DNA of 26,394 bases from a virus, in the IMG/VR virus record IMGVR_UViG_3300031841_004925, positions 1 to 26,394 of that record, one strand, 5' to 3'. Positions 36 to 25,058 of this stretch are shown here, in pieces. Made by a program: the position numbers and the translations under genes. How positions within the stretch are numbered: the stretch's first letter is position 1; every line of letters begins with the position of its first letter. Below the pieces are notes generated by a model. It had not been told where the DNA came from, ran no database searches, and saw only the letters and a program-made list of their open reading frames with translations.

Positions 36-1655
36 TTGTCCAAGGGCGCAAAAGTCCGACACGAGAAAAAGCGTTTAAAGTTGGCTCGAATCAACAAGCG
101 TGTGAAGGTTATTGGGCAGCCCATTGGCACCAAGACAGAACTTGATAGCCGAATGGGCCATGAAAGCTTTGATGCGTTATACGCAAGTACAGAGCGAAAT
201 ACCGCGCGAGTTTTGCCACTGAAGCATGAGAAAAGGCCCCCTTTCGAGAGGAAGCTCTCCCCTATATCTCTTCAACTGCAAAAACGAGACTGGTCTGGGC
301 AAATGCGCGCTCAAATTGTTACCCAGACGCCTGCAGGAAATGCACCCGAGGCTAATTCGGGTACTCGTTATACGGAAAAGCTAACACCAAAGAGCGTTTC
401 TAACATGTTCGAGAGTGGTGCGTATGTTGCCCAATGTCATGAAGGCTTTACTACATTTCTGACTTTGACTTTTACACCGGCACAACGTCACGCCATTTTT
501 TGCGCAATGGACGAAGGCATTGATGCTGACGGCCCATTTACTCCAGTAGAATTTGAACGAGATACTGGTGATCTTATTCCTGGCAAAGATGGCTTGTATA
601 CGCGGCTACCAAAACAACCTTTCAAAATCATTAAACCACTTGATACCAGTATTGGGCGCGAAACTTCCCGCTTTCTCGATGGCAGCAAAAAGATGTTTCA
701 CCGAGGTTGGTACACAGAAGATGGTGACTACGTTTCTGGGCAGTTCAAAGCGAAGCCTTCACCCTTCGGCCCTGATAGAGAGAAAGCAGATTTTCATTAT
801 ATGTGGGTAGCCGAAAGCCCCATGAATGAAGACGGCGAACCCAACCCACACGTTCACCTGTTGTTGAAGTGGACGGTCGATAAAAAGCATTTCAAAGACT
901 GGGCCAAACGTTTGGAATCTCTATGGGGTCATGGCATGGCTCACATCGAAAGAATTAGACAGCCCAAAGCAGCCAGTACTTATCTCATCAAAGCGGTTGG
1001 CTATGCTGCCAAAGGTAATAACGCAGACCAGGGTTTAATTAAGGGGAATCGCTACAGCATAGCGAGGGTCTCACGCGCACCAAGTTGGGAAACTCTTGCC
1101 TCGTTTGAAGCTGACAATATTACGGCTGTTATCCGTGAATTGGGTTACAAGCTTGAGCAGTGGAAAAAGCCTTTGCTACGAACTATCTCACGTATCAATA
1201 AGCAAAAAGCTCAAACCGTGAAAGCGTCGAGTATCGCCAAGCAACAAGGCAAGCCTGAAGACCATCTCAAAAAACTGCAGTCACGAATTATTCGCTTAGA
1301 ACATGCGGCTAAGAAAACCACGCAAGAAATGAAGTCTCGCCAAATGCATGCTTCTAGTGGTAACCGGTTCTCGATAACTTTTGACGGCGACGAAGCCAAA
1401 GAACGAATGGATAACTTCTTGATGTGGGCAGCTGGAGCCAGAGGTTGGTCGATGACTTGTCGTGATATCGATTGTAGCGATTTAAAGCAAGAAGCAGATG
1501 AAACGTATCAAGCACAATATCACCACTTCTTAGAGCGGCGGGCTTATTGGCGATCGGTTCTTGGTGAACCTTACATACCCGAAGAACCCGATGAGGATGA
1601 AGTGAGTTATTGGCAAAGTGCCAAAGCGGATTATTTAGAAGGGAGATTACAATAA
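36..1655 (+). CDS. HUH-family rolling-circle replication initiator (phage Rep, possibly 5'-truncated)
   Basis: Predicted to nick one strand at the phage origin through a tyrosine, covalently attach, and start rolling-circle replication, the role of P2 gpA-type proteins. The three HUH motifs are in order: FLTLTF near residues 141-146, PHVHLLLKW with metal-binding H272 and H274, and TYLIKAVGYAAKG, where Y316 and Y323 each begin a YxxK. The N-terminus is strongly basic. The start is a TTG with GGAG nine bases upstream; the frame stays open leftward to the window edge and the first ATG is at 153, so the true start could lie outside. The TAA overlaps the ATG of the next gene (TAATG), implying translational coupling. 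The role is firm by motif; the exact subfamily is not determined. Confidence 0.8.
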   Translation: MSKGAKVRHEKKRLKLARINKRVKVIGQPIGTKTELDSRMGHESFDALYASTERNTARVLPLKHEKRPPFERKLSPISLQLQKRDWSGQMRAQIVTQTPAGNAPEANSGTRYTEKLTPKSVSNMFESGAYVAQCHEGFTTFLTLTFTPAQRHAIFCAMDEGIDADGPFTPVEFERDTGDLIPGKDGLYTRLPKQPFKIIKPLDTSIGRETSRFLDGSKKMFHRGWYTEDGDYVSGQFKAKPSPFGPDREKADFHYMWVAESPMNEDGEPNPHVHLLLKWTVDKKHFKDWAKRLESLWGHGMAHIERIRQPKAASTYLIKAVGYAAKGNNADQGLIKGNRYSIARVSRAPSWETLASFEADNITAVIRELGYKLEQWKKPLLRTISRINKQKAQTVKASSIAKQQGKPEDHLKKLQSRIIRLEHAAKKTTQEMKSRQMHASSGNRFSITFDGDEAKERMDNFLMWAAGARGWSMTCRDIDCSDLKQEADETYQAQYHHFLERRAYWRSVLGEPYIPEEPDEDEVSYWQSAKADYLEGRLQ

Positions 1656-1888
1656 TGCTAGTGACATGCCCAAAATGTGAAAGCAAAACTCGTATTGCAA
1701 CCTCGCGTTCCATCAGTTCAGAAACGCGAGAGCTTTACTGCCAATGTTTAAACCTGAATTGCGGAAAAGTATTTGTAGCGCATACGTCGTTCTCGCACTT
1801 CATTGAACCAACGGGTCAGAAGCCAAATTCAGAGTTACAGCCTGAGCTGTGCAAAGGTGATGTGAACCAAATCGACATCTTTGAATAA
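1655..1888 (+). CDS. ogr: Ogr/Delta-family zinc-finger late transcription activator
   Basis: A 77-residue protein of the P2 Ogr / P4 Delta family. These small zinc proteins bind TGT-N12-ACA dyads near -55 of phage late promoters and recruit RNA polymerase. Visible are the CPKC pair near the N-terminus, the TSR.IS segment, and CLNLNCGKVFVAH supplying the second cysteine pair (C-x4-C), all in the family arrangement. The ATG at 1655 overlaps the stop of rep, so it is probably co-translated with it. A matching operator lies upstream of the scaffold gene at 15294-15311. The tail after the zinc domain is acidic and unremarkable. The following hairpin at 1895-1927 separates it from the convergent acetyltransferase genes. 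Confidence 0.88.
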   Translation: MLVTCPKCESKTRIATSRSISSETRELYCQCLNLNCGKVFVAHTSFSHFIEPTGQKPNSELQPELCKGDVNQIDIFE

Positions 1889-1894
1889 GTTGTT

Positions 1895-1927
1895 GGTACT
1901 TCCACAAGTGGGGCTTGTGAAAGTACC
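1895..1927. terminator. Hairpin between convergent ogr and algJ-like genes
   Basis: GGTACTTCCACAAG (1895-1908), loop TGGGG, and CTTGTGAAAGTACC (1914-1927) form a 14-position stem with one mismatch. It lies just after the ogr stop and before the end of the oppositely transcribed gene. Neither side has a clear T-run, so it may be a weak bidirectional terminator or an mRNA 3'-end stabiliser. Confidence 0.5.
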
Positions 1928-1939
1928 AGTCAAGATTGG

Positions 1940-3028
1940 TTACGGCTGTATTGGTGGAGGTGCTTGGAATAAATCATCAAGTGAATAGCGTTCAACAACT
2001 GTGACAAAAACGTAATCCGGTTTCCATTCTTGAATTAACTGTTCGAGCGCTTGTGTACCTAAAAGCTTACTCCAGTTTTGCTTTAAGATGTGCCCAAAGG
2101 TAGCTGTCATATAAGGAGCTAAAGCGTTCCCGTATGAATCACTTAACCATAGTACTTTTTTGTTATTGAGTGCATTTGGGGTTGTGATTAAGTACAGGTC
2201 ATCCCTATTCCCATATAATGGTGCTGTGCCTTTGTATACCACCGAATCTTTGTTGTAATCACTTATGATATGACTTAACTGTAAATTGTTTGCTTCTGTT
2301 ATTGGATTAGGATCAGAATATAGACTGCCAACTCGGAGAAATCTTGTAAGGTCACCATGGACATATGAATCATTCCTTATGACATTACTCCAATTAAGAG
2401 GAGGTAAAACTAGGCTTTCATTATTAATTCGTAACATAAACTCATTGAAAGCAACTCCCGCGCCGTAATAATTCCAATGCGTGTCCGTCTTGTAGTATAA
2501 ATCTTGAGTATTTATAACGTCAGATATTGTCTGCCTGACGTCGATGTAGATTTCACTGTCATACAGCGTTTGCGATATCGATTCGTTACTGGTTTTTGCC
2601 CATAGAGGTAAATATTCGTTGTAAATTGTACTTTTATTTGGCCCGACTAATATTTTATAGTCTTTTACGCCGTTCTTTTGAAAGTACTTTTCCCAGAGTA
2701 TCTGTGATTCTATGATTGCTTCTGAGCGCTCCTGAACTTCTACAGTCTGAAAACCTGCACGGTAAGCTGAAATTGTTTTTTGGTGGTCATCGCCTAAAAA
2801 GAACCACCCATCTTTTCCAACAACAACGGAGTTAGGTTTGATGCTTATCCCTAGAGGAACTAAATATGGGTTTATTTTTCCTTCAATAACATCAAGTGAA
2901 TAAAGGAACTTTGTGTTAGTAATATTTTCCTTTGTAAACCCACCTGAATAAATATTCACAATCGGCAGTATTGATAAAATAACACTGATTAATAAGAAAA
3001 ATATTTTAATATTGGCTCTATTGTTCAA
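1940..3028 (-). CDS. AlgJ/AlgX-like SGNH O-acetyltransferase partner
   Basis: A 362-residue membrane-anchored protein resembling the SGNH domain of AlgJ/AlgX, which act in the periplasm with an MBOAT protein to O-acetylate a polysaccharide. An N-terminal hydrophobic anchor spans about residues 8-26. GKDGWFFLG (71-79) is typical of the start of the AlgX catalytic domain. The catalytic Asp-His pair is in DTHW (D182, H184), and WLSDSYG supplies the probable nucleophile S298. It starts 14 bases after the MBOAT gene and is surely in the same operon. The stretch is visibly AT-richer than the phage structural genes, which fits acquired cargo. The acceptor (lipopolysaccharide, capsule or exopolysaccharide) cannot be told from sequence. 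Confidence 0.8.
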   Translation of the reverse strand: MNNRANIKIFFLLISVILSILPIVNIYSGGFTKENITNTKFLYSLDVIEGKINPYLVPLGISIKPNSVVVGKDGWFFLGDDHQKTISAYRAGFQTVEVQERSEAIIESQILWEKYFQKNGVKDYKILVGPNKSTIYNEYLPLWAKTSNESISQTLYDSEIYIDVRQTISDVINTQDLYYKTDTHWNYYGAGVAFNEFMLRINNESLVLPPLNWSNVIRNDSYVHGDLTRFLRVGSLYSDPNPITEANNLQLSHIISDYNKDSVVYKGTAPLYGNRDDLYLITTPNALNNKKVLWLSDSYGNALAPYMTATFGHILKQNWSKLLGTQALEQLIQEWKPDYVFVTVVERYSLDDLFQAPPPIQP

Positions 3029-3042
3029 TTAGATTCTCCTTA

Positions 3043-4506
3043 TTAAAAGTTAAAATATAGAAACACACTTGAAGATGAGCTTCTGATAATGTAAATGGAT
3101 ACTGCAAACAAAAAGGCCGCTGAAATCATTTTTCCTATCCCAACTTCTCTTTGTATCAATTCATATGAATTAGTTTTAGACAATAGATAAAAAGAAAAAG
3201 AGATGGCAGAGAATGGGATTGCATTTACGGCTACCATATTAGGAAGAATACCAAATAGAAGGTCAAAATTAGTACCAATCCATGACAATTTGTTAGAAGC
3301 TATTCCCTCTATTGGTTTATCGATTAGATTGAGCCCGCTCATGCTAGATAATAGGTTTACGGCGGTTGTAAGGTTTTCCGCCCTAAAAAAGACCCATGTC
3401 ATATTGATGAATATAAACGTTGTCAGCCAAGCTAACCATGTTGGCATGTTTCCGCCAACAGATTTCCACATTCTGTGCAATACGAGAGCCATGCCATGTA
3501 ACGCTCCCCAGATAACGAACATCCAGCTAGCACCATGCCATAGCCCACCAATTAGAAATGTAATGAAAAGGTTGCTGTAAGTCGTTAGTTCTTTTTTCTT
3601 ACTCCCACCAAGAGGAATGTAAATGTAATCCCTAAGGAACCTTCCTAATGTTATATGCCATCTACGCCAAAAGTCTTGGATATCTAGTGATTTATAAGGC
3701 GAGTTAAAGTTGATTGGTAGCTTTATGTTGAATAGCAACGCAGCGCCCATCGCCATGTCGCAGTAACCACTGAAATCAAAATACAACTGAAAAGAGTAGC
3801 TCAAGCTCGTTAGCCAAGCTTCGTAGAATGATAATGTGGCGGAGTTATAGAATCCTGCATCAGCCCATATAGAAAATGTATCAGCTATGGCAATTTTCTT
3901 AAACAAGCCGATAGAAAATATAAATAGACCAAGCGAGATATTTTTGCTTCTAGGAGCAAGATTCCATTTTGAATTAAATTGCGGCATCATTTCTTTATGA
4001 TGAACTATCGGGCCCGCAATTAATTGTGGAAAAAAAGTCACAAATAACGAGTAGTTCAAGAGGTCATATTCTTTAGTTTCTTTTCTGTAGCTGTCAACTA
4101 AGTACGCTATTTGCTGAAATGTGAAAAAACTAATAGCGAGTGGAAGAGCAATGTTAGTATTTTCAAATGGCTGGGATAATAATAAATTCACATTCCCAAT
4201 GATAAAGTTGGTGTACTTAAAGTAGCCAAGTAAAGCTATGTTTGTTATCACTCCAAAAGCCAAAAGAGACGATTTTTTAATGCCTTTATCTTTCTTGGTT
4301 AGATGACTTCCTAAAGCAAAATTGAATGCCAATGAACCGAGAATAATGGGAAGGTAGGAAGGCTCCCATCTAGCATAGAATATAAGACTAGCGACCACTA
4401 ACCACATCTTCGCGCAAGTATACAGTCGATACTTTGCTAGTATGAAATATATACAAAAGCAGATGGGTAAAAAGATGAATATGAAATTTATAGAACTGAA
4501 TAGCAT
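3043..4506 (-). CDS. AlgI-like MBOAT O-acyltransferase
   Basis: A 487-residue polytopic inner-membrane protein of the MBOAT family, AlgI/DltB/PatA type. It is predicted to pass acetyl groups across the membrane to its SGNH partner encoded directly downstream. Family signatures seen: LIFYARWEP in the N-terminal region, FPQLIAGPIVHH (159-170), FWRRWHITLGRFLRDYIYIP (279-298) and GGLWHGASWMFVIWGALHG (320-338), which carries the conserved histidines H324 and H338. The start MLFSSINFIF matches the usual AlgI-type beginning although no good ribosome binding site precedes it. Length is normal for the family. Located between ogr and the baseplate operon and on the opposite strand, it looks like a cargo gene changing surface polysaccharide during lysogeny. 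Confidence 0.87.
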   Translation of the reverse strand: MLFSSINFIFIFLPICFCIYFILAKYRLYTCAKMWLVVASLIFYARWEPSYLPIILGSLAFNFALGSHLTKKDKGIKKSSLLAFGVITNIALLGYFKYTNFIIGNVNLLLSQPFENTNIALPLAISFFTFQQIAYLVDSYRKETKEYDLLNYSLFVTFFPQLIAGPIVHHKEMMPQFNSKWNLAPRSKNISLGLFIFSIGLFKKIAIADTFSIWADAGFYNSATLSFYEAWLTSLSYSFQLYFDFSGYCDMAMGAALLFNIKLPINFNSPYKSLDIQDFWRRWHITLGRFLRDYIYIPLGGSKKKELTTYSNLFITFLIGGLWHGASWMFVIWGALHGMALVLHRMWKSVGGNMPTWLAWLTTFIFINMTWVFFRAENLTTAVNLLSSMSGLNLIDKPIEGIASNKLSWIGTNFDLLFGILPNMVAVNAIPFSAISFSFYLLSKTNSYELIQREVGIGKMISAAFLFAVSIYIIRSSSSSVFLYFNF

Positions 4507-4830
4507 AGGGACGTTACAAGGTGATAATCGAACTGGGAATGATACACTACTTGAACTGTACGTCTTTGATTTTTTATATAAACGAACAAAAACGATCTCG
4601 GACGATCTCTAAATCCCCAATCTAAAACAGCCCTCGATATAGATACATCGGGGGCTGTGTTCCAATACAACTACCGAAATGCAATGCGGTTCTAAGATCG
4701 CATAATTGCAGTGTGGAATTTTGGTGTGGAGGGGTGGGTGAGTCCGAACAGGGCCTGAGCGCCCAACTCCATCACTCATTTTATTCTCGCTGCCTAATTC
4801 TGATTTTCTTCTGTAGTTGGTGGCTTTTTG
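4507..4830. other. Gene-free spacer between algI-like gene and baseplate operon
   Basis: No convincing gene is seen on either strand in these 324 bases. The part nearest the algI-like start is AT-rich (TTTTTTATATAAAC around 4570-4584) and probably holds its leftward promoter. CATAAT at 4701-4706 is a possible -10 for the rightward baseplate operon. Only half of an Ogr-type dyad (TGT at 4658-4660 region, then ACC) could be found in front of it. The strong hairpin at 4627-4658 is listed separately. Confidence 0.5.
4627..4658 (-). terminator. Strong hairpin, terminator-like on the minus strand
   Basis: ACAGCCCTCGAT (4627-4638) pairs with ATCGGGGGCTGT (4647-4658) across an eight-base loop, twelve pairs with one G-U. 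Read on the minus strand it is followed by TTTTAGATT, so it could stop leftward transcription before the algI-like gene. On the plus strand there is no T-run. Confidence 0.5.
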
Positions 4831-6021
4831 ATGTGGGAACGACAGTACGAGCACGCTAGATGGAATGGGCTTAAGCTCAACATCCTATCGACCGCCTTTG
4901 ATGGTGGTAAGCGCTTGCAAGTCAGTGAAATCCCCTACTCTGACCTACCACACATCAAAGTCATGGGAACAAAAGCCCGAACTTACACGATTGAAGCGGT
5001 GTTTGTGGGTTCCAGTTCTCTGGCCGATGCCAATGTCCTCATTGAAAACCTAGAAGCAAAACCAACGGGCGAGCTAGAACATCCTTGGTTGGGTGAGCTG
5101 TCGCTTGTCTTTGAAGACGTATCCCAAAGCATCAGTACCAAGAAAGGCTTAGTCACGCTGAGCCTGAAGTTTGCTCGCGCTGGCTCTTCCCCTTCAATCA
5201 CTGCACCGACTTCCGTTCGTACAAAAACGCAGGCCAACATAGTCGAGAGCTTGTCGAAACGTTCTTTCGTAAAAGAAGTAAACGGCTTGGATGTATCGGA
5301 TATTCACAGAGTTCAGAGTGATGTCACCAGCGCATTGAACGTGTTGGTCGACATCACCAACCGTTTGAACCTCGAAGATGAAAACCTTCAAGACATTAAC
5401 CACGCCATCAACAAAGCGTTCTCTGCAGTGAGTAGCCTCAGCACCAATCCAACTGAGTTCGCTGATCTGTTTTCTACGTCTGTGGATGCGGTGGCCGATG
5501 GTGTTCAAGCTGAGCCAAGCTCAAACAATGAAGCTGTAGACAACTCGCGCAGTGCTCAAGCTTTGCTGTTAGGTGAAGTGAAACCGGACACGCCAACTCA
5601 GCATCACAATGTGCAGATGGTGACGGGTGCTGTGAAGATGAACAAAGACATAACACACCTAGAAAAAGGCGACCGCTTTGATATTACGCAGTCGGCTAAG
5701 CAGCCTGAAACCATCAAGAATGATCTGTCTACTTTGATTGTCGGTATCGATGAGCGCATCAAAGACACCACCCAAGTGTCGACACTTGAAAGTATTGAGT
5801 TGTTCGACGCGGTCACGACATTGAAAAGCAATGTCAAGGTTCAGCAAGATAAGGTGGTCAGCGGTACCGCACCCCATAGAACGGTGCAGTCACCACGCTT
5901 TCAATCTGCGTTGACAATTGCGCACGATGAATTCACTCAAGAAAAAGTCATCACCAAAATGAATGCATTGCAACACCCGCTCTTCATTCGTGGTGATATT
6001 GCCGTGAGGGATGTGTCATGA
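4831..6021 (+). CDS. DNA circulation / tail protein, Mu gp43-like (DNA_circ_N)
   Basis: First gene of the baseplate operon, 396 residues. The N-terminal domain matches the DNA circularisation family found in Mu-like tails: MWERQ start, GTKARTYTIEAVFVG near residues 47-62, then HPWLGELSLVFE and the SLKFARAG strand. The rest is helical and acidic. In related phages this gene directly follows the tape measure and the protein acts in baseplate or tail-tip assembly near the hub; here the tape measure is about 17 kb away at the other end of the cluster. The ATG at 4831 is preferred over the TTG at 4828 because MWE is the family start; the ribosome binding site is weak. Its end overlaps the next gene by four bases (ATGA). 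Confidence 0.82.
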   Translation: MWERQYEHARWNGLKLNILSTAFDGGKRLQVSEIPYSDLPHIKVMGTKARTYTIEAVFVGSSSLADANVLIENLEAKPTGELEHPWLGELSLVFEDVSQSISTKKGLVTLSLKFARAGSSPSITAPTSVRTKTQANIVESLSKRSFVKEVNGLDVSDIHRVQSDVTSALNVLVDITNRLNLEDENLQDINHAINKAFSAVSSLSTNPTEFADLFSTSVDAVADGVQAEPSSNNEAVDNSRSAQALLLGEVKPDTPTQHHNVQMVTGAVKMNKDITHLEKGDRFDITQSAKQPETIKNDLSTLIVGIDERIKDTTQVSTLESIELFDAVTTLKSNVKVQQDKVVSGTAPHRTVQSPRFQSALTIAHDEFTQEKVITKMNALQHPLFIRGDIAVRDVS

Positions 6022-23822: not shown

Positions 23823-24683
23823 TTAAATCGGTGCAAAACTGATAACGGACACACTTTTCGTGGATGGATGTTTCAGGACCATTTCATACGCCGAATCAAT
23901 TGATGTAAATTCGGGCTGACGCACAAAAAAACTAGACCCCAATGGTTCAACGGTTATATCTAACATAGCAGAGATCTCAACTTTAACTTCCTGTATTACA
24001 TCTTCATTTTCACTACTAATGTCAAACTTTACTCCTCTACGTATCTTTGAGCCTTTTTTCGTACGGTTACTGACTTCATTCACCATATATGAATTTGAAA
24101 TCATTGATTCTAGCTTATCCATCTTCCCCAAAAGGTACTTACCAAGCTGACCATCAACATTTTCATTAGCCGCTATTTCTTTCATTACATTATGTGTAAT
24201 AGCTCTATAAACTGGGTTATCAGGTTCTTCATCATTAAGAGCTTCTACAGCTAGAGTCTGAAGGCGGTCTTTTAACACAACAACACCTGCCATATCATTT
24301 TTATAGAAAATCGTACGCTCATCGGAGATATCGAACGGTAGTCTTGTACCGTCAACTGCGAGCGAAATCACAGGCTTTCGAGCACAATGGCGTAAGCCAA
24401 GTTCATACATAACATTAGGGTTCAATTCAGAAAGATTCGCTATAACCAATTCATCGTTAAGTACGTGCTCGATGACTTGTGTTGTAATTGAACCAGGGGT
24501 ATCTATTCGGTGTGCAACAACAACCTCCAAACCTAAAGCCTTACAAACAGGTTCAATTACCGCATCGATGATTCCGTCAGCGTGTCTTCGCGTATCTGAG
24601 TTATCAGCACCAATAGGCGTTACAATAAAGCACTTTTTGACTTTTTGTACTTGTTCTTCTTTCTTAGATTCAGCCTTTGCCAT
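23823..24683 (-). CDS. TIR-like / nucleoside deoxyribosyltransferase-like protein, candidate antiphage defence
   Basis: A 286-residue protein with a Rossmann-like N-terminal domain. CFIVTPIG (residues 18-25) is the first strand. RRHADGIIDAVIEPV, VVVAHRIDTPGSITTQVI and LVIANLSELNPNVMYELGL follow, where E94 is in the position of the catalytic glutamate of TIR NADases and nucleoside 2-deoxyribosyltransferases. KPVISLAVDGTRLPFD completes this domain. Residues from about 205 form a separate, acidic, beta-rich domain that may sense a ligand or phage protein. It has its own strand, promoter and terminator at the end of the prophage, where P2-type phages carry defence cargo. The fold assignment is fairly good; NAD cleavage and defence are inference. 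A plain metabolic role is the alternative. Confidence 0.68.
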   Translation of the reverse strand: MAKAESKKEEQVQKVKKCFIVTPIGADNSDTRRHADGIIDAVIEPVCKALGLEVVVAHRIDTPGSITTQVIEHVLNDELVIANLSELNPNVMYELGLRHCARKPVISLAVDGTRLPFDISDERTIFYKNDMAGVVVLKDRLQTLAVEALNDEEPDNPVYRAITHNVMKEIAANENVDGQLGKYLLGKMDKLESMISNSYMVNEVSNRTKKGSKIRRGVKFDISSENEDVIQEVKVEISAMLDITVEPLGSSFFVRQPEFTSIDSAYEMVLKHPSTKSVSVISFAPI

Positions 24684-24826: not shown

Positions 24827-24857
24827 ACCTATGCACTGGCAAAATCCAGTGTCGGGC

Positions 24858-24881
24858 GTAGGAACCCGTTTAGACATAAGG
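24858..24881 (+). promoter_or_regulatory. First C4 target copy (b1/a1-like) in the leader
   Basis: GTAGGAA at 24858-24864 (loop of a CGGG/CCCG hairpin) and GACATAAGG at 24873-24881 are complementary to C4 segments TTCCTAC (25027-25033) and CCTTGTGTC (25012-25020), the second with one G-U pair. They repeat the pair found before the antirepressor start, as the two target copies flank c4 in phage P1. Confidence 0.55.
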
Positions 24882-24891
24882 CGCATAGACG

Positions 24892-24913
24892 CCAGCTTTT
24901 TGCTGGTTTTTTT
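24892..24913 (+). terminator. Terminator or attenuator in the C4 leader
   Basis: CCAGC (24892-24896), loop TTTTT, GCTGG (24902-24906), then seven T. A competing stem GGCG (24880-24883) with CGCC (24890-24893) overlaps its left arm, so the two cannot form together. This suggests attenuation before the C4 RNA and antirepressor gene. Confidence 0.72.
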
Positions 24914-24954: not shown

Positions 24955-25036
24955 GAAACCGTACTATCTGAATTATGGTGGGCTGGGCAAGGCAGCTTCG
25001 GCTGGCCGTATCCTTGTGTCGCGGTATTCCTACCCT
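24955..25036 (+). ncRNA. c4: C4 antisense RNA (antirepressor control)
   Basis: The stretch has the form of C4 RNAs of P1-like and many other phages: GAATTATGGTGGGCTGGGC, a CAGC-TTCG-GCTG hairpin (24993-25004), CCGTATCCTTGTGTCGCGG and ATTCCTACCC. Its TCCTTGTGTC (25011-25020) is perfectly complementary to 25090-25099, which covers most of the ribosome binding site of the downstream BRO gene. TTCCTAC (25027-25033) pairs with GTAGGAA at 25059-25065. In P1, C4 silences ant this way. The boundaries are approximate. Identification is from remembered family sequence plus the visible complementarity. Confidence 0.72.
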
Positions 25037-25058
25037 TGTTCAGTTCACCACCCGAAGC

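Follow-up and report, generated by a model that had tools for sequence, protein, structure and literature searches.

An MBOAT/SGNH acyltransferase gene pair in a variable cargo slot of a P2-like Vibrio prophage: a putative route to O-acetylation of the host surface

What would a P2-like prophage gain from a membrane-bound acyltransferase and an SGNH partner, encoded on the strand opposite to that of the phage genes around them? The question is raised by a partial virus record (IMG/VR IMGVR_UViG_3300031841_004925), of which the whole stretch analysed, 26,394 nucleotides, is here called the window. The window is a P2-like prophage of a marine Vibrio; among public phages those closest to it come from Vibrio cyclitrophicus and are colinear with it, at 84-95% DNA identity outside the cargo sites. 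At its left end lies a replication-protein gene (36-1655, plus strand; Pfam REP_ORF2-G2P, 5e-7), the left part of which is cut by the window start and which in Vibrio phage 10N.237.312.G08_PE003 (L003) is complete and encodes 639 amino acids. It is followed by the gene of an ogr/delta-type late activator (1655-1888, plus strand; Pfam Ogr_Delta, 1.6e-15), a variable slot (1889-4569), a conserved non-coding block (4570-4824, plus strand), and the gene of a baseplate hub of the DNA circularisation N family (4828-6021, plus strand; Pfam DNA_circ_N, 2e-22; PHROG 184). A first-pass annotation had placed an acetyltransferase pair between ogr and the baseplate operon, and the profile matches of the two flanking genes bear this placement out.

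The slot holds two minus-strand genes that form an operon with a 14-bp gap: upstream, a gene for an MBOAT acyltransferase of the AlgI/DltB/PatA-like type (3043-4506; 487 amino acids, ATG start) and, downstream, one for an SGNH O-acetyltransferase of the AlgX/DHHW type (1940-3028; 362 amino acids, TTG start behind AAGGAG). Both the profile score (PF03062, E 3e-41, 142 bits with a gathering cut-off of 27) and the conserved histidines assign the first protein to the MBOAT family, and its nearest solved relative is DltB (4.5e-27). The second carries an N-terminal hydrophobic membrane anchor and matches ALGX (PF16822, E 2e-13, 51 bits with a cut-off of 26.5) and DHHW (1e-5); among solved structures it matches PatB1 and AlgJ (phmmer, E about 1e-5). 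Alignment with PatB1 pairs its TDTHW with TDHHW and its SDS with KDS, which are catalytic motifs (PMC9487903). The protein is circularly permuted, D182 and H184 (D-x-H) preceding the nucleophile S298, an order also described in PMC9487903 and fitting SGNH transferases of the AlgX/DHHW type. These three residues are invariant in an alignment of homologues, as are H324 and H337 of the MBOAT protein across five homologues; the key residues named at first reading hold, except that the second histidine had been numbered H338, off by one. Pfam matches of the pair are limited to MBOAT, MBOAT_2, ALGX and DHHW, the Acyl_transf_3 domain of AT3/OafA enzymes being absent, and PADLOC contains no model that matches the pair. 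A single-sequence structure prediction of the SGNH protein gave a mean pLDDT of 35. The open reading frames, Pfam profiles and solved-structure matches confirm a complete MBOAT and SGNH pair on the opposite strand, genuine at this place far beyond chance, and acetyl transfer is, from its motifs and family, its likely biochemistry.

Comparison with related prophages places the pair in exchangeable DNA. The L003 sequence matches the window as far as 1882 and resumes matching at 4570, with different DNA between; where the window has an insert of 2681 bp, relatives have 167-2481 bp of different content. Searches with the hub protein recovered 22 loci in IMG/VR and seven in genomes, including one weak, unrelated match. 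Across about 27 related Vibrio prophage loci, ogr and hub are conserved while the contents between them differ, with at least a dozen kinds represented: SIR2-TPR (four variants), KAP NTPase, RES, DUF6710, an 8xMP membrane protein, a TPR membrane protein and several unknowns; some relatives have no more than a small gene there, about 300 bp long. The KAP NTPase matches the candidate defence family PDC-S49. At this slot the MBOAT/SGNH pair occurs in none of the surveyed related loci. Its GC content is 0.367, compared with 0.459 for the rest of the window, and slot inserts in relatives mostly lie at 0.35-0.40. Conserved flanks and high turnover of content define a prophage cargo hotspot, and the ogr-to-hub gap shows both; a prophage cargo slot with rapid turnover is thus supported. 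Because the flanks are conserved while the content varies, and because of its lower GC, the pair itself is best read as cargo, as had been proposed at first reading; none of 228 Vibrio species genomes contained it as a core chromosomal locus with the same flanks. Since roughly every second occupant lacks a recognised defence domain, a defence role for the slot is suggestive only.

The other occupants merit description in their own right. In the SIR2-TPR proteins (L008, L020, L021 and L025) the SIR2 half is conserved and the TPR half diverges, which makes them candidate NAD-depleting defence genes with a fast-changing sensor part. The single-gene occupants of L006, L010, L011, L012 and L026, together with a gene at 29631-31007 of L003, have no Pfam or PADLOC match, or a TPR match only, and are candidates for new defence genes. 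The L003 slot contains a full-length 5S rRNA-like sequence (10681-10796 of L003, plus strand; 89.8 bits) and no sizeable open reading frame there. The L003 gene at 29631-31007, which encodes 458 amino acids, stands at a second site, in the interval from the tape-measure gene to the right end, where the window has instead a minus-strand gene (23823-24683) with a weak match to a TIR effector (PADLOC, E 4e-7); because the two genes differ, this site is a second variable cargo slot. Further along, Rfam matches to isrK and C4 antisense RNA (24833-24912 and 24971-25055, plus strand) are conserved in L003 and lie beside a Bro-N gene, so that this stretch resembles an immunity or antirepressor region of the P1/P4 type.

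The position of the slot agrees, in place and strand, with the tin-old lysogenic-conversion locus of P2. The P2 map runs from A (replication, plus strand) through orf91, tin and old (both minus strand) to cos, and that of the window from rep (plus strand) through ogr, the SGNH and MBOAT genes (both minus strand) to the conserved block; by this alignment of maps, both would carry variable cargo for lysogenic conversion on the minus strand after a replication gene. They differ in the chemistry of the cargo and in the presence of ogr to the left of the slot in the window. The P2 hotspot adjoins cos; between P2 cos and the right block of the window there is no significant match. Rousset et al. (2022; PMC9122126) described the E. 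coli P2 slot next to cos as an antiviral hotspot; the hotspot that they report in Vibrionaceae is a different slot, between cI and integrase, and the ogr-to-hub slot receives no mention in the excerpted text. The block at 4570-4824 is 92-97% identical in close relatives and contains GGTGTGGAGGGGTGGGTGAG at 4723-4742, a motif that is present in the relative loci and occurs once in the window; its GGNGNGGAGGGNNNGGTGAG motif persists even in L032, the hub of which is only 49% identical. The block is possibly a late promoter or a packaging site. It is not put forward as a P2-type cos, local alignments to the ends of P2, HP1 and K139 being no better than those of shuffled sequences.

AlgI is often used as a default name for MBOAT proteins. 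The pair had been called alginate-type at first reading. The label describes the chemistry: like AlgI with AlgJ/AlgX of Pseudomonas, the pair combines an MBOAT protein with a circularly permuted SGNH protein bearing D-x-H and S. It does not describe the system, for the pair has a single SGNH protein, no AlgF or alginate biosynthesis reading frame lies beside it in the window, and its locus is of another type. The next homologous pair in Vibrio (in genome G027; 56-61% identity for MBOAT and 46-49% for SGNH, both genes frameshifted) sits in a surface-polysaccharide locus, with genes for a glycosyltransferase, a sugar transferase, a Polysacc_synt_2 protein, an RmlD-like reductase, glucose-1-phosphate cytidylyltransferase and CDP-glucose 4,6-dehydratase, and with a GC content of 0.33-0.43 compared with 0.46 in the adjoining core genes. 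A further MBOAT relative (57%, genome G090) lies beside rmlD and a Wzt-type ABC transporter and has a different partner gene. In the stretches examined around both homologues there were no alginate genes. Because the chromosomal homologues stand in surface-polysaccharide loci without alginate genes, the acceptor is, by this context, most likely O-antigen or capsule and not alginate. A true alginate acetylation system of the AlgI/AlgJ/AlgX/AlgF kind, to which the ALGX profile and the weak match to the AlgJ structure 4o8v might point, is disfavoured, and with a lone SGNH protein, no alginate genes alongside and relatives in O-antigen-type loci we give it almost no credence. The pair also resembles PatA/PatB1 of Bacillus in its aligned motifs, but that system is chromosomal and its acceptor is a Gram-positive secondary cell wall polysaccharide.

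Homologous pairs are carried by other phages. Pseudomonas phage JBD44 and eight related records, among them vB_Pae_LC3I3, JBD88b, JBD94b and DO4, encode an MBOAT protein and an ALGX protein with 57% and 34% identity, respectively, to those of the window. JBD44 is likewise temperate, and gene order and catalytic residues are the same; it differs in being a siphophage, in which the pair lies outside a P2-type slot, near tail-fibre genes. To call such a system unusual for a P2-like phage was reasonable, but among phages at large it is not unique to this one. In a tree of ten MBOAT sequences, the deep forks of which are not resolved, the JBD44 protein clusters (97/97) with that of a chromosomal pair in another gammaproteobacterium, the window copy standing apart, so that the two pairs were likely recruited separately. 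An IMG/VR scan with the MBOAT protein returned one distant Mu-like contig only, in which the MBOAT gene is followed by one for a protein without a Pfam match that appears SGNH-like by eye; the corresponding scan with the SGNH protein gave no match. The receptor of JBD44 is O-antigen, and the paper reporting this mentions no acetylase (PMC9112912). A search of the open-licence literature turned up no work on MBOAT/SGNH pairs in phages.

In JBD44 the pair adjoins the endolysin gene. This arrangement, together with the MBOAT and SGNH layout shared with PatA/PatB (PMC9487903), would suit an enzyme that acetylates peptidoglycan and so shields it from lysozyme or endolysin and times lysis. Set against this, neither protein of the window matches DUF459, the PatB family, in Pfam at E 0.001, the only matches being to the families named above, and the nearest chromosomal homologues belong to surface-polysaccharide loci. 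We consider a peptidoglycan acceptor quite improbable.

A second copy of the pair gives an indication of how it has been maintained. Only one of the 228 Vibrio species genomes (G208) has a near-identical pair, with 97% protein identity for SGNH and 99.8% for MBOAT and with 96% identity of the copy. It is intact and lies on the chromosome inside an IS-riddled remnant of the same prophage, in the order 5' piece of int, IS, end of rep, broken ogr, intact pair, part of the right block, second IS, and prophage right end; the two IS copies are direct repeats, 99.3% identical. A chromosomal source locus or a satellite was considered for this copy and rejected, as sequence from the int and right-end parts of this prophage lies on either side of it, beyond the IS copies. 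Between the window and G208, dN is 0.0009 and dS 0.085 for MBOAT (dN/dS about 0.01), and dN is 0.013 and dS 0.11 for SGNH (dN/dS 0.12), ratios that come from two sequences and do not distinguish the branch under selection. Because these ratios are low, both genes are, on sequence grounds, under purifying selection, strong in the case of MBOAT, which argues against an inactive prophage form. The same result bears on the view that the pair is recent passenger DNA without function. Low GC (0.367 against 0.459) and rarity among relatives would be expected of such DNA, but both genes have open frames and low dN/dS, and their catalytic residues are invariant, which makes it highly improbable.

In the G208 remnant the pair has survived whole although almost all of the prophage has disappeared around the two IS copies, which would be expected if the pair served the host even with the phage gone. 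This could also indicate that acetylation of the surface polysaccharide benefits the host in some way other than phage exclusion, for example against grazers, antimicrobial peptides or animal immunity, or in biofilms. The remnant is a single case and an anecdote, whereas the slot is phage-borne, changes its content fast and has several occupants with defence-type domains. We regard this alternative as unlikely, though it retains some weight, and phage exclusion as the likelier benefit.

The reading that we favour, and hold to be probable, is lysogenic conversion in which a surface polysaccharide is O-acetylated in the periplasm, resulting in receptor masking or superinfection exclusion. The first-pass annotation had suggested, in the same vein, a changed receptor, blocked superinfection or a changed serotype, a functional reading that is plausible. 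The MBOAT protein would take acetyl from acetyl-CoA in the cytoplasm and pass it through the inner membrane to the anchored SGNH protein in the periplasm, which would accept it on S298 of the D182/H184/S298 triad and move it to a hydroxyl group on one of the host's surface polysaccharides, most likely the repeat units of O-antigen or capsule. The acetylated glycan would then mask the receptor and lower the adsorption of competing phages, and perhaps the re-adsorption of released virions. Because the operon runs opposite to its phage neighbours in a tin-old-like slot, it is probably transcribed from its own promoter in the lysogen; sigma-70 and terminator scans were at or below chance level, and no convincing sigma-70 promoter emerged upstream of the pair. 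Surface polysaccharide is probable as the class of acceptor, while the acetyl nature of the group, the acceptor sugar, expression in the lysogen and phage exclusion are what we infer from gene content and context. A functional analogy, through receptor masking, is offered by the Oac/OafA acetylases of D3 and Sf6, which are likewise prophage-borne and act by extracytoplasmic O-acetylation, but which belong to the one-protein AT3 family (PF01757), unrelated to MBOAT. In D3 and Sf6, O-antigen acetylation by such enzymes excludes phages (PMC11436027, PMC9558356), and capsule types of Klebsiella have been linked to prophage acetyltransferases (PMC13123978).

It is possible, and we put it forward tentatively, that MBOAT/SGNH pairs are a recurrent and hitherto unrecognised receptor-masking cargo, which temperate phages of P2-like, siphovirus and perhaps Mu-like type have each acquired from O-antigen-type loci in separate events; in Vibrio such a pair would share a tin-old-like slot with intracellular defence genes. 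Phage O-antigen acetylation is known through one-protein AT3 enzymes; here the same job would be performed by unrelated two-protein enzymes. If this is true, prophage-borne defence would be widened to surface chemistry, and the reason for which O-antigen acetylation differs among close Vibrio could be tested directly. With its dozen or so unrelated contents, several uncharacterised proteins among them, the ogr-to-baseplate slot also provides a list of candidate defence genes.
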